In this document: in pieces, positions 2 to 59,392 of the stretch
Position numbering within the stretch: position 1 is the stretch's first letter
Layout: each line of letters begins with the position of its first letter
Source: Mycobacterium sp. EPa45
GTDB taxonomy: Bacteria; Actinomycetota; Actinomycetes; Mycobacteriales; Mycobacteriaceae
DNA length: 64,000 bases
Direction: 5' to 3'
Assembly: GCF_001021385.1 (NCBI RefSeq)
Contig: NZ_CP011773.1
Location: 1,178,001 to 1,242,000 of the forward strand
Made by a program: the position numbers and the translations under genes
Notes under the pieces: generated by a model
Databases searched by the model: none
What the model was told of the DNA's origin: nothing
The model's input: the letters and a program-made list of their open reading frames with translations, nothing else

Positions 2-1204
2 TCGGCGTACGCCCGCACGCTGGCCGCCGACGCGGTCGACGAGAAGGGCAACGTCATCGTCACCGCCGGACACGATCTCGGCGATCCGGCGATCGACGCC
101 CTGCTGGAGGCCGGCATCACCTCGGTCAAGGTTCGCTCGGTGCTCACCTGCACCAGCGCCTCGGGTGTGTGCGCGATGTGTTACGGCCGTTCGATGGCCA
201 CCGGCAAGCTGGTGGACATCGGCGAGGCCGTCGGCATCGTGGCCGCGCAGTCCATCGGTGAGCCCGGCACGCAGCTGACCATGCGCACCTTCCACCAGGG
301 TGGTGTTACCGGTGGCGCCGACATCGTCGGTGGTCTGCCCCGCGTGCAGGAGCTGTTCGAGGCGCGTATTCCGCGGAACCGCGCACCGATCGCCGATGTC
401 GCCGGGCGGGTTCAGCTGGAGGAGACCGACAAGTTCTACAAGATCACCATCGTTCCCGACGACGGGAGCGAGGAGGTCGTGTACGACAAGCTCTCCAAGC
501 GTCAGCGGTTGAAGGTGTTCAAGCACGACGACGGTTCCGAGCGACTGCTGGTCAACGGTGACCACGTCGAGGTTGGTCAGCAGCTCCTCGAGGGCTCGGC
601 CGACCCGCACGAGGTGCTTCGTGTCGAAGGCCCGCGCAAGGTGCAGATCCACCTCGTCAAGGAGGTGCAGGAGGTCTACCGGGCGCAGGGTGTGTCGATC
701 CACGACAAGCACATCGAGGTCATCGTTCGGCAGATGCTGCGTCGCGTCACGATCATCGATTCGGGCGCAACGGAGTTCCTGCCCGGCTCGCTGACCGAGC
801 GCAGCGAGTTCGAGTCCGAGAACCGTCGGGTGGTTGCCGAGGGCGCAGAGCCCGCGGCCGGCCGTCCGGTGCTGATGGGCATCACCAAGGCGTCGCTGGC
901 CACCGATTCGTGGCTGTCGGCGGCGTCGTTCCAGGAGACCACTCGGGTGCTGACCGATGCGGCGATCAACTGCCGCAGCGACAAGCTCCAGGGTCTGAAG
1001 GAGAACGTGATCATCGGCAAGCTGATCCCGGCCGGTACCGGTATCAACCGGTACCGCAACATCCAGGTGCAGCCGACCGAAGAGGCTCGGGCCGCGGCGT
1101 ACACGATCCCGTCCTACGAGGATCAGTACTACAGCCCGGACTTCGGCCAGGCCACCGGAGCTGCGGTTCCGCTGGACGACTACGGCTACAGCGACTACCG
1201 CTAG
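2..1204 (+). CDS. rpoC: DNA-directed RNA polymerase beta' subunit, 3' part (partial)
   Basis: This is the C-terminal 400 residues of RNA polymerase beta'; the gene enters from the left edge in frame 2. The translation holds the conserved C-terminal part of beta': a [13 protein letters not shown] segment with the last cysteines of the second zinc site, the [25 protein letters not shown] stretch, and the [19 protein letters not shown] block. It ends in the usual acidic, tyrosine-rich actinobacterial tail. A perfect terminator hairpin follows four bases after the stop, so this is the end of the rpoBC operon. Family assignment is certain; residue numbers cannot be given because the start is outside the window. 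Confidence 0.98.
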
Positions 1205-1207
1205 TCA

Positions 1208-1248
1208 CAAGAAAAGAGCCCCGGCATTGTGCCGGGGCTCTTTTCTTG
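1208..1248 (+). terminator. Intrinsic terminator of rpoBC
   Basis: A perfect 19-bp inverted repeat with a 3-base loop (ttg). The GC core gccccggc/gccggggc is flanked by A-rich and T-rich arms, so it reads as a classic hairpin plus T-tract and could work in both directions. Confidence 0.93.
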
Positions 1249-1252
1249 TCCG

Positions 1253-1310
1253 CGAACAGACGCACAATCGCGTGAATCTGGCCGTCCCAGTGCGATTGTG
1301 CGTCTGCTCG
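1253..1310. repeat. Long inverted repeat downstream of the rpoC terminator
   Basis: Two 19-base arms (1253-1271 and 1292-1310) match with one mismatch; the inner 15 bases (cagacgcacaatcgc) are perfect. The loop is 20 bases. There is no T-tract and a terminator already stands just upstream, so a second terminator is not needed. It may be a dispersed intergenic repeat or a protein-binding palindrome; only a genome-wide search can tell. Confidence 0.7.
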
Positions 1311-1397
1311 CCAGTCGCCGCCGACCGTGCCGCGATGAGTTCTGCCGCCGGTCGAGGTCTACCTTGGCGACTGTCAAAAGAATTCCAGGAGGAACGC

Positions 1398-2045
1398 GTG
1401 CCCCAATTGCTCCGAGTCCACAATTTCATGCTGTCGCGCGACGGTTTCGGCGCCGGGCTCAACCAGCGCTTGGAGCGGCCGTTCGGCGACGCCGATCAGC
1501 CTGCCCTGTTCGCCTGGGTCGGTGCGACGGCCAGTTGGGTGGGCCGCAGCGAGCCGGGCGGAACGCGCGGCCTCGATGACTACTTCACCCGCGAATTCCA
1601 CCGCAACATTGGCGCAGAGATCATGGGTCGCAACAAGTTCAGCCCGTATCGCGGCCCGTGGCAGGACCACCCGGAATGGCAGGGCTGGTGGGGCGACGAG
1701 CCGCCCTTCCACACACCGGTATTCGTCATGACGCACCACGAGCGCCCGTCGCTGACGTTGGGGGAGACCACGTTTCACTTCGTTTCCGATGACCCGGCGA
1801 GCGTGCTGGAGCAGGCGAAGCAGGCCGCGGGCGGTAAGGACGTCCGTCTCGGCGGCGGCGCGGCCACCGTCCGGCAGTTTCTCGACGCCGGTCTGGTCGA
1901 CACCCTCCACGTGGCGGTCGCCGACGTGGAGATCGGCGCCGGGTCGCGGCTCTGGGTGTCACCGGACGAGCTCGACGACCAGTTCCATCACGAGGTGGTG
2001 CCCAGCCCGAGTGGTGTCACACATCACCTGTTCTGGCGGAGATGA
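1398..2045 (+). CDS. Dihydrofolate reductase/RibD C-terminal family protein
   Basis: A 215-residue protein of the RibD_C/dihydrofolate-reductase-like fold, a family of NAD(P)H-dependent reductases. The signature segments are MGRNKF (76-81) and the nucleotide-binding RLGGGAATVRQF (150-161), followed by a GLVDTLHVAVADVEIGAGSRLW strand-turn. The GTG start at 1398 is chosen because an AGGAGG ribosome site lies 5-6 bases upstream; the open frame extends further up but runs through the inverted repeat. The substrate is unknown, and sequence alone does not tie it to riboflavin or folate synthesis. It is a single gene between two hairpins and the endonuclease IV gene. Confidence 0.87.
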   Translation: MPQLLRVHNFMLSRDGFGAGLNQRLERPFGDADQPALFAWVGATASWVGRSEPGGTRGLDDYFTREFHRNIGAEIMGRNKFSPYRGPWQDHPEWQGWWGDEPPFHTPVFVMTHHERPSLTLGETTFHFVSDDPASVLEQAKQAAGGKDVRLGGGAATVRQFLDAGLVDTLHVAVADVEIGAGSRLWVSPDELDDQFHHEVVPSPSGVTHHLFWRR

Positions 2046-2086
2046 CGGCGGTGCGCGGCGTCGGTGCGCCCGCCTAGACTCGACAT

Positions 2087-2839
2087 GTGCTCATCGGTTC
2101 CCATGTCCACGGCGACGACCCGCTGGCCGCCGCAGCGGCTGATGGCGCCGAGGCGGTGCAGTTCTTCCTCGGCAACCCGCAGAGCTGGAAGAAGCCCAAG
2201 CCGCGCGACGACGCCGAGATGCTGAAGGCGTCGTCGGTCCCGCTGTACGTGCATGCGCCGTACCTGATCAATGTGGCGTCGGCCAACAACCGGGTCCGCA
2301 TCCCGTCGCGCAAGATCCTGCAGGACACCTGCGATGCCGCCGCCGAGATCGATGCGACTGCGGTGATCGTGCACGGTGGCCACGCCGACGACAACGACAT
2401 GGAGGCCGGTTTCGAGCGCTGGGTCAAAGCCCTGGCTCAGCTGGAGACGAACGTGCCGGTGTATCTGGAGAACACCGCCGGCGGCGATCACGCGATGGCA
2501 CGCCACTTCGACACCATCGCCCGGCTGTGGGAGCGCATCGCCGATACCGGTATCGGATTCTGCCTCGACACCTGCCATGCCTGGGCGGCCGGCGAGGAGC
2601 TGATCGATGCCGTCGAGCGCATCAAGTCCATCACCGGCCGCATCGACCTGGTGCACTGCAATGATTCCCGCGACGCCAAGGGATCCGGCGCCGACCGGCA
2701 CGCCAATTTCGGCACCGGACAGATAGATCCGCAACTTCTGGTGGCGGTGGTTCAGGCGGCGAACGCGCCGGTGATTTGTGAGACAGCCGACGAGGGCCGC
2801 AAGGACGACATCGCCTTTCTCCGGGAACACCTCAGCTGA
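2087..2839 (+). CDS. end: Endonuclease IV (AP endonuclease)
   Basis: This 250-residue protein cleaves DNA at abasic sites in base-excision repair. The three-zinc TIM-barrel ligands of the Nfo family are visible: H56 in HAPYLIN, H96 in VHGGH, E128 in YLEN, D161 and H164 in LDTCHAW, H190 and D193 in VHCND, H205, and E232 in CETADE. It starts at a GTG (MLIGSHV). It matches the position of M. tuberculosis end (Rv0670) downstream of rpoC. The stop is two bases before the GTG of the lipoprotein gene, suggesting co-transcription. At 250 residues it is shorter than E. coli Nfo, as is usual in mycobacteria. Confidence 0.95.
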
Positions 2840-2841
2840 CC

Positions 2842-3675
2842 GTGTGGGTTCGTCGACTCGCGCTGTTGGTAGCGCTGTGCCTGGTGGCGGCCTGCGCGCC
2901 CGTCGCGACCGGCTTTGCCCCGGGTGCCAGCGTGCACCGGATCAACGTCGGCGGTGTGGATCGCGTCTACCGGCTGTACGTTCCGGAGGGCCTGCCGCCG
3001 TCGGCGCCGCTGGTGGTGATGTTGCACGGCTGGACTGGTAGCGCCGGGCAGGCCGAGCGGCAATACGGCTGGAACGGGAAGGCCGACTCCGCCAAGTTCG
3101 TGGTCGCCTACCCCGACGGTGTGGGTGAGTCGTGGAACGTCGACGCCTGTTGCGGAAAAGCGAGTGAGGACAAGGTCGACGACCTCGGCTTCATCACCGC
3201 CGCCGTCCGCAACATCACCGAGAACCTCGACATCGACAGGACCCGCATCTATGCCGCCGGCATCAGCAACGGCGGCATCATGGCCTACAAATTGGCTTGC
3301 AACACCGACCTTTTCGCGGCCATCGGGCCGGATGCCGCAACTCTGCTCGCGGCGTGCCCGGCGCCGCGCCCGACGTCGGTGTTGCACATCCACGGTACCG
3401 ACGACCGGTTGGTGCGCTACGACGGCCAGCCCGGAACGGTGCTCCCGATCCCGACCATGACGCCACCGGATGCGAACGCCTTCTGGCGCAACGTCGACAA
3501 ATGCGAACCCCCGACGACCACCGTCGACGGAGATCTGACGACGTCATCGGCCAACTGTCCGGGCGGGCGCAGCGTCGAGTTGATCACCGTGGCCGGCGGC
3601 GAACACGACTGGCCGTCGTTCGCCACGGAGAAGATGTGGGACTTCTTCGCCGCGCATCCCGCTCGGTCGAGCTAG
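2842..3675 (+). CDS. lpqP: Lipoprotein esterase/depolymerase LpqP
   Basis: This 277-residue lipoprotein is an alpha/beta hydrolase of the polyhydroxybutyrate-depolymerase/feruloyl-esterase type. A basic N-terminus and hydrophobic run end in the lipobox VAAC, with lipidated Cys18. The oxyanion segment LHGWTG is at 61-66, the nucleophile Ser142 sits in GISNG, an acid is in HGTDD (about 187-188) and the His is in GGEHDW (H255). It therefore probably acts on an ester substrate outside the membrane. The natural substrate is unknown. The gene follows end by two bases and matches Rv0671. Its stop overlaps the convergent cupin gene. Confidence 0.92.
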   Translation: MWVRRLALLVALCLVAACAPVATGFAPGASVHRINVGGVDRVYRLYVPEGLPPSAPLVVMLHGWTGSAGQAERQYGWNGKADSAKFVVAYPDGVGESWNVDACCGKASEDKVDDLGFITAAVRNITENLDIDRTRIYAAGISNGGIMAYKLACNTDLFAAIGPDAATLLAACPAPRPTSVLHIHGTDDRLVRYDGQPGTVLPIPTMTPPDANAFWRNVDKCEPPTTTVDGDLTTSSANCPGGRSVELITVAGGEHDWPSFATEKMWDFFAAHPARSS

Positions 3676-4007
3676 GTCAGATAGATCTTCCGCAGCGTCT
3701 CGGTCACCGACCACACCGTCTTGGTGCCCTTCGCCAGGTGCACCACATCACCAGCGCTGAGCGTGATCAACGGGCTGCCGTCCTCGAATTCGATGGTCGC
3801 CGCACCGGACAGCACCACGAAGACTTCCTCGGCCTCGACATCGCGCATCACGCCGGGCGTCATCTCCCACACCCCGACCTCGAGGCCGCCGAAGCTTCCG
3901 AGTTCGGCTGTCCCGGTGTACGGCTCACCGCCCAGGGATTGCTCGGCGGGGACCGGTTGATGTTCGAGCCACTGGGTGGCGGCGTGGACGACGGAGTTCG
4001 GCTTCAC
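3672..4007 (-). CDS. Small cupin-domain protein
   Basis: A 111-residue single-domain cupin. The core shows the two cupin motifs in relaxed form: EVFVVLSGAATIEFEDG and LSAGDVVHLAKGTKTVW. It resembles the DUF861/EutQ-like cupins, in which the metal site is often lost, so an enzymatic role cannot be assumed. It is convergent with lpqP (three-base overlap of stops) and divergent from fadE8, with about 60 bp between the starts. It may be regulated with the fadE8 operon, but nothing in the sequence shows this. Confidence 0.85.
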   Translation of the reverse strand: MKPNSVVHAATQWLEHQPVPAEQSLGGEPYTGTAELGSFGGLEVGVWEMTPGVMRDVEAEEVFVVLSGAATIEFEDGSPLITLSAGDVVHLAKGTKTVWSVTETLRKIYLT

Positions 4008-27285: not shown

Positions 27286-27797
27286 GGGGCACCTCCCTCC
27301 GGATAGAGCTTTCTGAACGCGCGCCGGGCGCGCACGAGTAGGGCTTCGGTGGCGTGCACGCTGCGTCCGATCAGGTCCGCACACTCAGGTACCGAACAGT
27401 CGTCCATGTAGCGCAGGGTCAGCACCACGCGGTGTGCGTCGGGCAATCGGGCCAGCACACTTTCGGCGACGATTCGGTCCAGCTGGGCGTCCCACTCATC
27501 GGCCGCTTGGCCGTCGGGAACGTCGGCGACCGTCACCGACGGCCTGGCCGCGCGGCGCCGGTAGTGGTCGGCGAGTTTGTGCCGGGCCACGCCGAGCAAC
27601 CAGGGGACCGCGAGAGGTGGCGGCGCCGAACGGCGGGCGGCGTCCATCGCGGCCAGGAACGTCTCCGAGGTGAGGTCCTCGGCGGTGGCCTGATCACCGC
27701 ACCGGCGGACGAAGTAGCCGTAGACGACCGGTAGTGCGTCGTCGTAGAGCTCCAACAGCCGGTACGGAGCATCGGGTGGTTCCGGATCCGCGCTCAC
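27282..27797 (-). CDS. ECF-family RNA polymerase sigma factor
   Basis: A 171-residue extracytoplasmic-function sigma factor. Region 2 is seen in LPVVYGYFVRRCGDQATAEDLTSETFLAA and VPWLLGVARHKLADHYRRRA. Region 4 is seen in RLPDAHRVVLTLRYMDDCSVPECADLIGRSVHATEALLVRARRAFRK. The GTG at 27797 (MSADPEPPD) is a tentative start preceded by AGGGA; a longer frame starting TTG at 27845 adds 16 residues of low plausibility. It is the first gene of a two-gene operon with the VOC protein. Its regulon is unknown. Confidence 0.88.
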   Translation of the reverse strand: MSADPEPPDAPYRLLELYDDALPVVYGYFVRRCGDQATAEDLTSETFLAAMDAARRSAPPPLAVPWLLGVARHKLADHYRRRAARPSVTVADVPDGQAADEWDAQLDRIVAESVLARLPDAHRVVLTLRYMDDCSVPECADLIGRSVHATEALLVRARRAFRKLYPEGGAP

Positions 27798-27877
27798 ATC
27801 CCTATCGTCGTCGTGCGAGAGCGATCTCCGACGCGTCGGGACCAACTTTTTTCAGGCGACCGCTTCCGAGTCACGGA

Positions 27878-57253: not shown

Positions 57254-58132
57254 ATGCTCACCGAGCTCGTCGAGGTGCCCGGCGGGGCGTACCGGATGGG
57301 GTCGACCAGCTTCTATCCCGAAGAGGCGCCGATCCATACGGTGACCGTGGGCCTCTTTGCGATCGAACGACACCCGGTGACGAACGCGCAGTTCGCCGAA
57401 TTCGTCGCCGCCACCGGGCATGTCACCGTCGCCGAGAAGGCGCTCGATCCGGCGCTGTATCCCGGTGTGCCCGAAGCAGATCTGCAGCCGGGTGCACTGG
57501 TGTTCCGGCCGACGCCGGGTCCGGTGAACCTGGCGGACTGGCGGCAGTGGTGGGACTGGGCGCCCGGTGCGAATTGGCGCGCGCCGTTCGGGCCCGGCAG
57601 CGACATCGCCGACAAAGCCGACCATCCCGTCGTGCAGGTGGCGTATCCCGACGCCGCCGCCTACGCGCAGTGGGCCGGCCGCCGGCTGCCGACCGAAGCC
57701 GAGTGGGAGTACGCCGCCCGGGCCGGCAGCACGAGCGCGTACGCGTGGGGTGACGAGCCGACGGTCGGGGGAGCGTTGATGGCCAACACCTGGCAGGGCC
57801 GATTCCCCTACCGCAACGACGGGGCGCTGGGGTGGATCGGCACCTCCCCGGTCGGGACCTTCCCGCCGAACGGGCTCGGCCTGGTCGACATGATCGGCAA
57901 TGTCTGGGAGTGGACGACGACGCGGTTCTCCGCCCATCACGTGGTGAACCAGAAGAATTCGTGCTGCCCACCGCCCGCGGAACCGGATCCGAGCATCAGC
58001 CAGGCACTCAAAGGCGGCTCGCATCTGTGCGCCCCGGAGTACTGCCATCGGTATCGTCCGGCGGCGCGGTCGCCTCAGTCGCAGGACACCTCGACCACCC
58101 ACATCGGCTTCCGCTGCGTGGTGAGCCTGTAG
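57254..58132 (+). CDS. Formylglycine-generating enzyme (sulfatase activator)
   Basis: A 292-residue SUMF1-type enzyme. It oxidises the Cys of the CxPxR motif in sulfatases to formylglycine. The active cysteines are Cys259 and Cys264 in GSHLCAPEYCHRY; they bind copper in characterised FGEs. The fold is marked by LVEVPGGAYRMGS, HPVTNAQF, GRRLPTEAEWEYAARAG, GNVWEWT and the C-terminal HIGFRCV. It matches Rv0712. Being in the same operon as the Cys-type sulfatase, it is almost certainly its activator. The stop lies inside a 60-bp repeat that recurs 1,001 bp downstream. Confidence 0.96.
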   Translation: MLTELVEVPGGAYRMGSTSFYPEEAPIHTVTVGLFAIERHPVTNAQFAEFVAATGHVTVAEKALDPALYPGVPEADLQPGALVFRPTPGPVNLADWRQWWDWAPGANWRAPFGPGSDIADKADHPVVQVAYPDAAAYAQWAGRRLPTEAEWEYAARAGSTSAYAWGDEPTVGGALMANTWQGRFPYRNDGALGWIGTSPVGTFPPNGLGLVDMIGNVWEWTTTRFSAHHVVNQKNSCCPPPAEPDPSISQALKGGSHLCAPEYCHRYRPAARSPQSQDTSTTHIGFRCVVSL

Positions 58133-58182
58133 TTAGCGACGGGGTTACTCGCACTTTCGCGCGGTAACGACAGCCTGGCCGG
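58123..58182 (+). repeat. 60-bp intergenic repeat, copy 1
   Basis: It starts at gagcctgTAG, the stop of the formylglycine enzyme, and ends at acagcctggccgg. It aligns without gaps to 59124-59183 with 44 of 60 bases identical. The best-kept blocks are gagcctgta, gcgac, tactcgc, taac and acagcctgg. Confidence 0.75.
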
Positions 58183-58214
58183 GATCTGTCGGGATCCGCT
58201 GGGAGCATTCCGCC

Positions 58215-59133
58215 ATGAGGAAGCTCATCATCGGCAGTCAGGCGCAGCGGGCGGGCACCGTGACCGAATACGAACTGCGCCGGGAATACGTCCGGATGCA
58301 CCGGGATGTCTATGTGCCCAAAGGGTATTCGCCAGATTTGATCGACGTCATCGATGGGGCGTGGTTGCGTTCTGGCCGAAAAGGCGTGGTCGCAGGGATT
58401 GCCGCGTCTGCGCTGCACGGGGCCGCCTGGGTCGGCGATGACACTCTCGTCGAGCTGATCTGGGACAACACCCGGCCGCCTGAAGGGATCATCGCCCGCG
58501 CCGAGCGCTTGGCTCCCGACGAGGTCACCACCTGCGACTGCATTGCGGTGACCACGGCGGCTCGGACCGCCTACGACCTCGGCCGGCACCTTCCGCGAGG
58601 CGAGGCGCTGATGCGACTCGACGCACTCAAACGGGCGACCGCCTATCTCGACGATGAGGTGCTCGAGCTGACCAGGCGGCACAAAGGTGCGCGGGGCATG
58701 CGCCAGCTGCTCGAATTGCTACCGCTTGTCGACGGCGGTGCGGCCTCGCCACAAGAAACGCGGCTGCGGTTGTTGTACCTCGACGCGGGGTTTCCCCGGC
58801 CGAGCACCCAGATCGCCGTCTTCGAAGGGCAATGGAAAGTCATCCGCAGGCTGGACATGGGCTGGGAGGACCTCAAGGTTGCCTCCGAGTACGACGGCGA
58901 TCAGCACCGGACCGACCGGACGCAGTACGTCCGAGACCAGCGGCTGATGCCCAGGGTTTGCCCGCCTGGGTTGGGAGGTCGTCCGGGTGATCAAGGAGGA
59001 TCGCGATGCGGAGATCCTCGACCGCACATATGTCACCCTCGTCCGACGGGGATGGGACGGTCGATTGCGGTCGTCCCGGCGAAACCGCTGGTGGCGACCG
59101 CCAGCCATACTGGGCGATGCGGCGAGCCTGTAA
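58215..59133 (+). pseudogene. Frameshifted AbiEi/DUF559-type gene
   Basis: It encodes a protein with an N-terminal winged-helix-like segment (SQAQRAGTVTEYELRREYVRMHRDVYV), an AbiEi-like middle (VAGIAASALHGAAWV, AVTTAARTAYDLGRHLP) and a DUF559/Vsr-like nuclease-type C-terminus (WEDLKVASEYDGDQHRTDRTQYVRDQRLM). After about 58955 the frame loses similarity and runs on to 59168. The expected ending GWEVVRVIKEDRDAEILDRTYVTLVRRGWDG continues in the +1 frame and stops at 59133, so one extra base near 58945-58965 breaks the gene. Intact relatives are common multi-copy genes in mycobacteria. Function is uncertain: toxin or nuclease. It is bracketed by two related 60-bp repeats. Confidence 0.8.
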
Positions 59134-59183
59134 GTGGCGACAGCTCTACTCGCGTTTCGTCTCGATAACTACAGCCTGGGCGG
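59124..59183 (+). repeat. 60-bp intergenic repeat, copy 2
   Basis: It starts at gagcctgTAA, the restored-frame stop of the DUF559-type gene, and ends at acagcctgggcgg. It is the partner of 58123-58182 in direct orientation, 1,001 bp downstream. Confidence 0.75.
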
Positions 59184-59218
59184 CAGGGCCAGCGCTGAGC
59201 GCGGTGAGCTGCGCGGAT

Positions 59219-59247
59219 TTGGAGCTTTTCCGCTCGTCACCTAGCAT
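59219..59247 (+). promoter_or_regulatory. Promoter of the spc ribosomal operon
   Basis: TTGGAG at 59219-59224, a 17-bp spacer and TAGCAT at 59242-59247. It would start the rplN operon about 138 bases before the GTG, so L14-L15 expression need not depend on the S10 promoter 13 kb upstream. Confidence 0.6.
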
Positions 59248-59392
59248 GTAGGGGTTGCCTAGGGCAGACCTCGGCCGGCGAATGTCGGCCCCGCGTGCTC
59301 TTGGGTGACAAAGACCGCGCACGACAGGCTCCATCTTGGACTGCCTTTAGGGATTTTGTCGTGCACACAGTTACCAGATCCGAGGAGATCTA

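Follow-up and report, generated by a model that had tools for sequence, protein, structure and literature searches.

What is a broken nuclease-type gene doing between two direct repeats, in the gap between an FGE (sulfatase-modifying factor) gene and a gene that, from its sequence, we take to be rplN? The question arises in Mycobacterium sp. EPa45, within a stretch of 64,000 nucleotides (contig NZ_CP011773.1, positions 1,178,001 to 1,242,000 of the forward strand; hereafter the window). A first-pass annotation had described the locus as a gene-plus-repeat module and had proposed that the repeat is the target or end sequence of an undescribed mobile element, a proposal supported here by family-wide brackets, by modules with the same palindrome arms at non-syntenic sites and by sites that hold a single element without the gene. 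The best reading of the locus is that it is a decayed copy of a small module with the order palindrome, nuclease gene, palindrome. The comparative data suggest a family of small mobile genes that has not been described before, and we give a probability of roughly 0.6 to the proposal that the encoded protein recognises these palindromes and that the module is mobile.

The two direct repeats (58120-58182 and 59121-59183) are 63 nt each, ungapped and spaced by 1,001 bp, with 46/63 positions identical. The annotated 60-bp match (44/60) and the unit length of 1,001 bp were reproduced, while the best 60-mer match between shuffled versions of the 200-bp repeat regions was at most 35/60 (300 shuffles) and elsewhere in the window, on either strand, copy 1 matched at no more than 33/60. 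The first part of the AbiEi/DUF559-type nuclease gene (58215-58949, plus strand) covers family profile positions 1-245, and the remainder lies in another frame (58957-59058, plus strand, profile positions 248-281). Because the profile match switches frame after position 245, the gene is regarded as broken, in agreement with the annotation. The stop codon noted at the start of each repeat was also recovered: the TAG stop of the FGE gene sits within copy 1, and at the equivalent place in copy 2 a TAA (59131-59133) ends the frame that contains the tail of the DUF559-type gene. Overlooked in the annotation were the imperfect palindromic structure of each copy and the presence of related copies elsewhere in the genome.

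Each palindrome is ~62 bp long and consists of two arms around an asymmetric core. Both window copies (58117-58184 and 59118-59185) lie in the same orientation, assigned to the minus strand, and belong to type A, which on that strand has arms like CGAGGCTGTAGTTATCG and CGATAACTACAGCCTCG and the core GAAAGTGCGAGTA. The pattern GAAANNNCGAGTA occurred 12 times in the genome, compared with 2 for the reversed control. The eight elements behind a covariance model, R1, included the two window copies and a third copy from this genome, so that these match by construction; the model identified eight places at E <1e-9 in the 6.18-Mb genome, two of which are the window copies (71.4 bits in the window for copy 1 and 75.5 bits for copy 2). 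Weaker matches in the genome represent a second arm type, B. Across 66 distinct matches, 971/1,187 arm cells were Watson-Crick in an alignment that was fitted to the covariance model and so favours pairing. Several arm pairs occurred in three or four Watson-Crick types, indicating that the palindrome is kept by paired change. An excess of G-T over A-C was not found in the stems (99 versus 107 overall, and 42 versus 59 in a second count), and the window copies folded no better than shuffles on either strand (z 0.25, -0.83, 2.24 and 1.51). These two results suggest that the element works as DNA and not as RNA, and on the same grounds an RNA hairpin or terminator was rejected. A search of Rfam returned a single match, to a eukaryotic microRNA family, which at an E value of 3.5 scored far short of the family's cut-off.

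Palindromes were also found at the ends of other DUF559 genes, with arms that match across both sides of a gene and vary between genes. For the window's gene and 62 others, the downstream flank of a gene was the best match to its own upstream flank in 38/63 cases, where about 1 was expected. Named mycobacterial loci were the best 80 of 555 relatives, and a gene was counted as bracketed if the upstream/downstream repeat score was >=40. This score was reached in 57/80 loci, 39 with direct and 18 with inverted copies; the gene's own flank ranked first in only 31/80, because related genes have arms in common. The upstream palindrome match most commonly begins 90-110 bp before the gene. The annotation had suggested searching for the repeat beside other DUF559 genes, and brackets proved general in the family: in the same loci 56/79 DUF559-type genes scored >=40, compared with 0/312 neighbouring genes, whose maximum was 37. 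Bracketing extended to 10/15 distinct genes of a distant subfamily, and in a further set the score was reached at 8/12 loci of the genus and 9/18 outside it, one of the latter nine (L368) resembling an ordinary tandem repeat. Family matches (E 1e-20) were present in 102/120 Mycobacteriales genomes, at 1-15 per genome, and in 36/43 genera searched. A universal core was considered and rejected, as among the 57 bracketed genes a loose CTCG..TT was found in 34 (18.7% in shuffles), GACACGCCG in 5 and neither in 18. Separately, a locus of genome G012 (L324) contains two arrays of ~70-bp palindromes with a related core (at about 2240-2450 and 3190-3400, roughly 700 bp apart), at which no DUF559 gene was detected.

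The protein was modelled as a fusion of an AbiEi-like DNA-binding part (AbiEi fold with a winged helix) and a homing-endonuclease/Vsr-like nuclease of the EDxHD/Vsr type. Nuclease residues are conserved in the family, and a Pfam scan of 25 members returned nine families with no transposase among them. The gene probably codes for a DNA-binding, DNA-cutting protein. Among 1,490 gene pairs in unrelated surroundings, obtained after 106 syntenic pairs were dropped, element similarity tracked protein identity (rho 0.34, 0/500 permutations), and arms were shared by 12/14 non-syntenic pairs at >=70% protein identity compared with 6/533 below 50%. These sequence comparisons indicate that gene and palindrome travel or evolve as a pair. 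The protein columns involved were located by comparing 145 same-arm with 1,348 different-arm pairs, drawn from 132 proteins and matched for overall identity. Arm tracking was strongest in columns 20-32 (a run of 13 columns from 20, excess identity 0.160), an excess reached by 0/826 usable permutations of 1,000 (null 95% 0.099), and a second run at columns 89-101 showed an excess of 0.113. The columns that best track the arm sequence, and hence co-vary with it, are those of the predicted recognition helix and wing.

Palindromes also occur alone. The annotation had held that repeat copies without DUF559 genes would speak against its proposal, and to the letter this is what was found, since 25/26 dispersed copies lack such a gene in the surrounding 1.5 kb or so; that the repeat is confined to DUF559 loci is thereby ruled out. 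Because the association between gene and repeat is so strong, we take the solo copies to be part of the system. Gene calls around the loci were crude (based on GC3, the GC content of third codon positions, and length); with these, 49 solo-type loci were placed between convergent genes in 24 cases, codirectional genes in 22 and divergent genes in 1, with 2 in a called frame. This count includes L315 and L317, which were dropped from the site comparison as a DUF559 gene is present, together with L331, which repeats L299, leaving 48 usable loci of 51.

At seven of these 48 loci, representing six sites (L078, L087, L293, L299, L301 with L314, and L312), both flanks surround a DUF559 gene in other species. 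The gene was confirmed inside the gap for every partner listed, and one candidate pair (L320/L195) was dropped as its DUF559 gene lies outside the gap. Solo element and module have arms in common at three sites. At L312 the scores are 41-71 for five of the eight partners, at L087 they are 40-56 for three of the eight tested, and at L299 a single partner of five scores 43, with the others at 30-35. They differ at the remaining three (L078/L209, L293/L147, and L301 and L314 versus five loci; scores 16-24), ruling out a homing process that requires the same arms. L301 and L314 are close relatives with flanks 91-94% identical, and at 1485-1585 in both loci the inner core is the same while both outer arms are switched. 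The L312 site is a hot spot, with a solo element in G032 and at least three module arm types in L014, L016, L129, L138, L149, L159, L164 and L352. Within the window, an intergenic site at 27734-27877 has no clear element, and the matching site in G012 (L172) has a DUF559-type gene.

Gene, solo element and empty site alternate at shared sites, and the window's own locus is one of them. The FGE gene (57254-58132, plus strand; an open reading frame matching PF03781, E 1.3e-82) borders the variable stretch on the left, and the rplN leader (59211-59392, plus strand), conserved in relatives whether or not they have the module, borders it on the right; the genes from rplN on follow downstream (the window was annotated from about 52 kb). 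FGE was found in 192/198 genomes, and the 30 closest loci were compared by eye and by script; in 12 of these no rplN comes after FGE within the locus. At the FGE-rplN site, compared in 18 loci, gene and elements are present in the window's genome, G065 and G110, of which only G110 has a gene that spans the whole profile in one frame. Degraded gene remnants are found in G183 and G187, a single element in five genomes (G018 and G195, both type B, and G004, G036 and G178), and no such element in seven; G202 was left unclassified. The solo element of G036 (L268) has a type B left half and a type A right half joined near the core, and looks like the product of recombination between elements of two types. 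The palindrome at this site in G178 (L276) belongs to neither type A nor type B, its arms being GCGAGCAGACGCAGAATCGCA. In G004 (L051, about 980-3720) a cut-short B element lies behind FGE, and then come insertion sequences, presumably two, to judge from their open reading frames, and apparently with one nested in the other.

Similar alternation was observed at two further sites, each in ten genomes. The module of G065 at the second site (L322) is contiguous in G162, G036, G004 and G105, exactly one B element lies between the same flanks in the window's genome, G187 and G018, and the remaining three genomes differ. At the third site (L157) the module is whole only in G055; in G105 the gene and its right flank are present and the left flank lies on a different contig, neither gene nor element is present in the window's genome and G018, the flanks are 0.8-1.0 kb apart in four genomes, and a left-flank match is absent in two.

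From presence and absence at such sites we infer movement, and the binding, cutting, homing and direction of change set out here are likewise inferred. The winged helix would bind the two arms of the palindrome. Since a known AbiEi operator has the same layout, two arms that enclose a core of roughly 25 nt, the nuclease part would lie over the core, and the upstream copy could also serve as the operator of the gene. The nuclease would cut solo copies or the module's own ends, whereupon host recombination repair would copy the module into the element site; on its own, this homing step seems to us to fall somewhat short of an even chance. Recombination between the bracketing copies would delete the gene and leave a single copy, as in solo long terminal repeats. 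Tentatively, and with more doubt than belief, the modules may constitute a new class of Mycobacteriales selfish DNA, namely a nuclease gene flanked on either side by a copy of its own recognition site, which homes into solo palindromes, recombines out as solo scars and switches code when the helix and both arms change together. Under that proposal the AbiEi-like winged helix would set the arm sequence, so that each lineage would have its own palindrome code. That elements recombine at the core and then become symmetrical again is a guess from the G036 chimera and the L301/L314 arm switch.

Several observations weigh against a mobile module that recognises its palindromes. Free cutting of double-stranded copies should have destroyed the module's own brackets, and 23 of the best 80 loci did not reach the repeat threshold. 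Related genes were found in 0 of 50,697 phage records and in 6/72,556 plasmid records, all at <60% identity, and spread by phages or plasmids was rejected on this basis. Single-element sites between FGE and rplN, expected by the first-pass annotation, do exist in relatives, but the solo elements at this site are of type B or a B/A chimera and none is type A. At the three sites compared no clear target-site duplication or fresh insertion junction was seen, and divergence there is high. Shared sites were also found for 1/38 window intergenic sites used as a control, so the count of 7/48 is by itself only suggestive. Moreover, one site can hold differing arm types across species and arms are shared at three of the six sites, indicating that the arms do not fix the site. 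Finally, outside the DNA-binding part no protein column stood out for tracking the core, and a nuclease part that reads the core found no support in this test.

Could the system instead be a static regulator? Here, the AbiEi-like protein would use the upstream palindrome to repress its own promoter, the other copies would be further operators or insulators, and species differences would reflect gene loss, with nothing mobile. AbiEi has been proven to repress its own gene through inverted repeats of this kind, as described in the portion of PMC3985639 consulted, and both the commonest start of the upstream element 90-110 bp before the gene and the tracking of arms by the recognition helix are consistent with this explanation. 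However, a matching palindrome also lies behind the gene, conservation extends to the nuclease residues, unrelated sites can hold same-arm modules, and 24/49 solo loci lie between convergent genes compared with 1/49 between divergent ones (raw counts from crude gene calls, without a background rate). We consider a static regulator unlikely. Still less probable is a gene cassette, in which another recombinase inserts a gene with one palindrome beside an existing palindrome, as in integron attC joining, with the DUF559 protein as cargo. The observed bracket would result from a unit that pairs one gene with one imperfect palindrome, and a chimera joined near the core, as the G036 solo element resembles, would fit such joining; however, cargo leaves unexplained why the arms co-vary with the recognition helix of the DUF559 protein, in loci that were collected by this gene family. 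That the palindromes serve as terminators or stabilising hairpins downstream of genes, DUF559 genes merely tending to have two of them, accords with the solo copies lying mostly at gene 3' ends and with arms maintained by paired change, but is highly improbable given shuffle-level folding of the window copies on either strand, stems without an excess of G-T over A-C, and arms that agree within a gene and differ between genes.

The proposed mobile module shares features with several known systems. In REPtrons, as described in the portion of PMC3733652 consulted, genes for RAYT transposases are flanked by repetitive extragenic palindromes (REPs) or terminal inverted repeats; as here, the palindromes are gene-specific, dispersed copies lie mostly behind genes and several types occur per genome. 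Unlike the HUH tyrosine (IS200/IS605-type) transposase of REPtrons, the enzyme here is an AbiEi-nuclease fusion. Further, the elements are about 62 bp rather than the 20-40 bp of REPs, the GTAG/CGTC tag of REPs is found at neither end (in a consensus that covers 68 model positions and was derived from 66 type A elements), and the brackets, in contrast to those of REPtrons, are mostly direct (39/57). The nuclease domain is shared with the EDxHD homing endonuclease I-Bth0305I (3r3p) and with Vsr (1cw0), and presence and absence at one site among relatives is as expected of a homing endonuclease gene. Here, however, no intron or intein is involved, the AbiEi-like part replaces the DNA-binding parts of those enzymes, and the presumed site is not split by the gene but stands complete on either side of it. 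The AbiEi fold with its winged helix is shared with the AbiEi antitoxin and the Rv2827c family (6y8q, 1zel), from which the present proteins differ by the nuclease fusion and by palindromes that are dispersed as well as on both sides of the gene. Unlike the AbiE type IV toxin-antitoxin system, the window copy has no AbiEii gene beside it, its neighbours in the window being FGE and rplN. REP13E12 is likewise a multi-copy mycobacterial repeat with an endonuclease-type gene, but its protein is of the HNH/DUF222 type, and we know of no palindromes that bracket it. For mycobacteria, the portions of PMC2267715 and PMC5217627 consulted catalogue families of stem-loops, as well as a spaced motif, CGAAA(N)19TTTCG, with function unassigned; they too are dispersed palindromic or stem-loop DNA, described there without a link to a protein, and may overlap the present elements. 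In the open-licence literature no report was found that links such DUF559/AbiEi-type genes to palindromes.

If the proposal is true, a single function would account for both the multi-copy family annotated as 'DUF559' or 'AbiEi-like' and the unexplained palindromes of mycobacteria, and the module would represent a second way, unrelated to the first, of realising the REP/RAYT design. The many natural pairs of helix and palindrome would then allow direct tests both of the recognition code and of homing by a fusion of AbiEi and nuclease.
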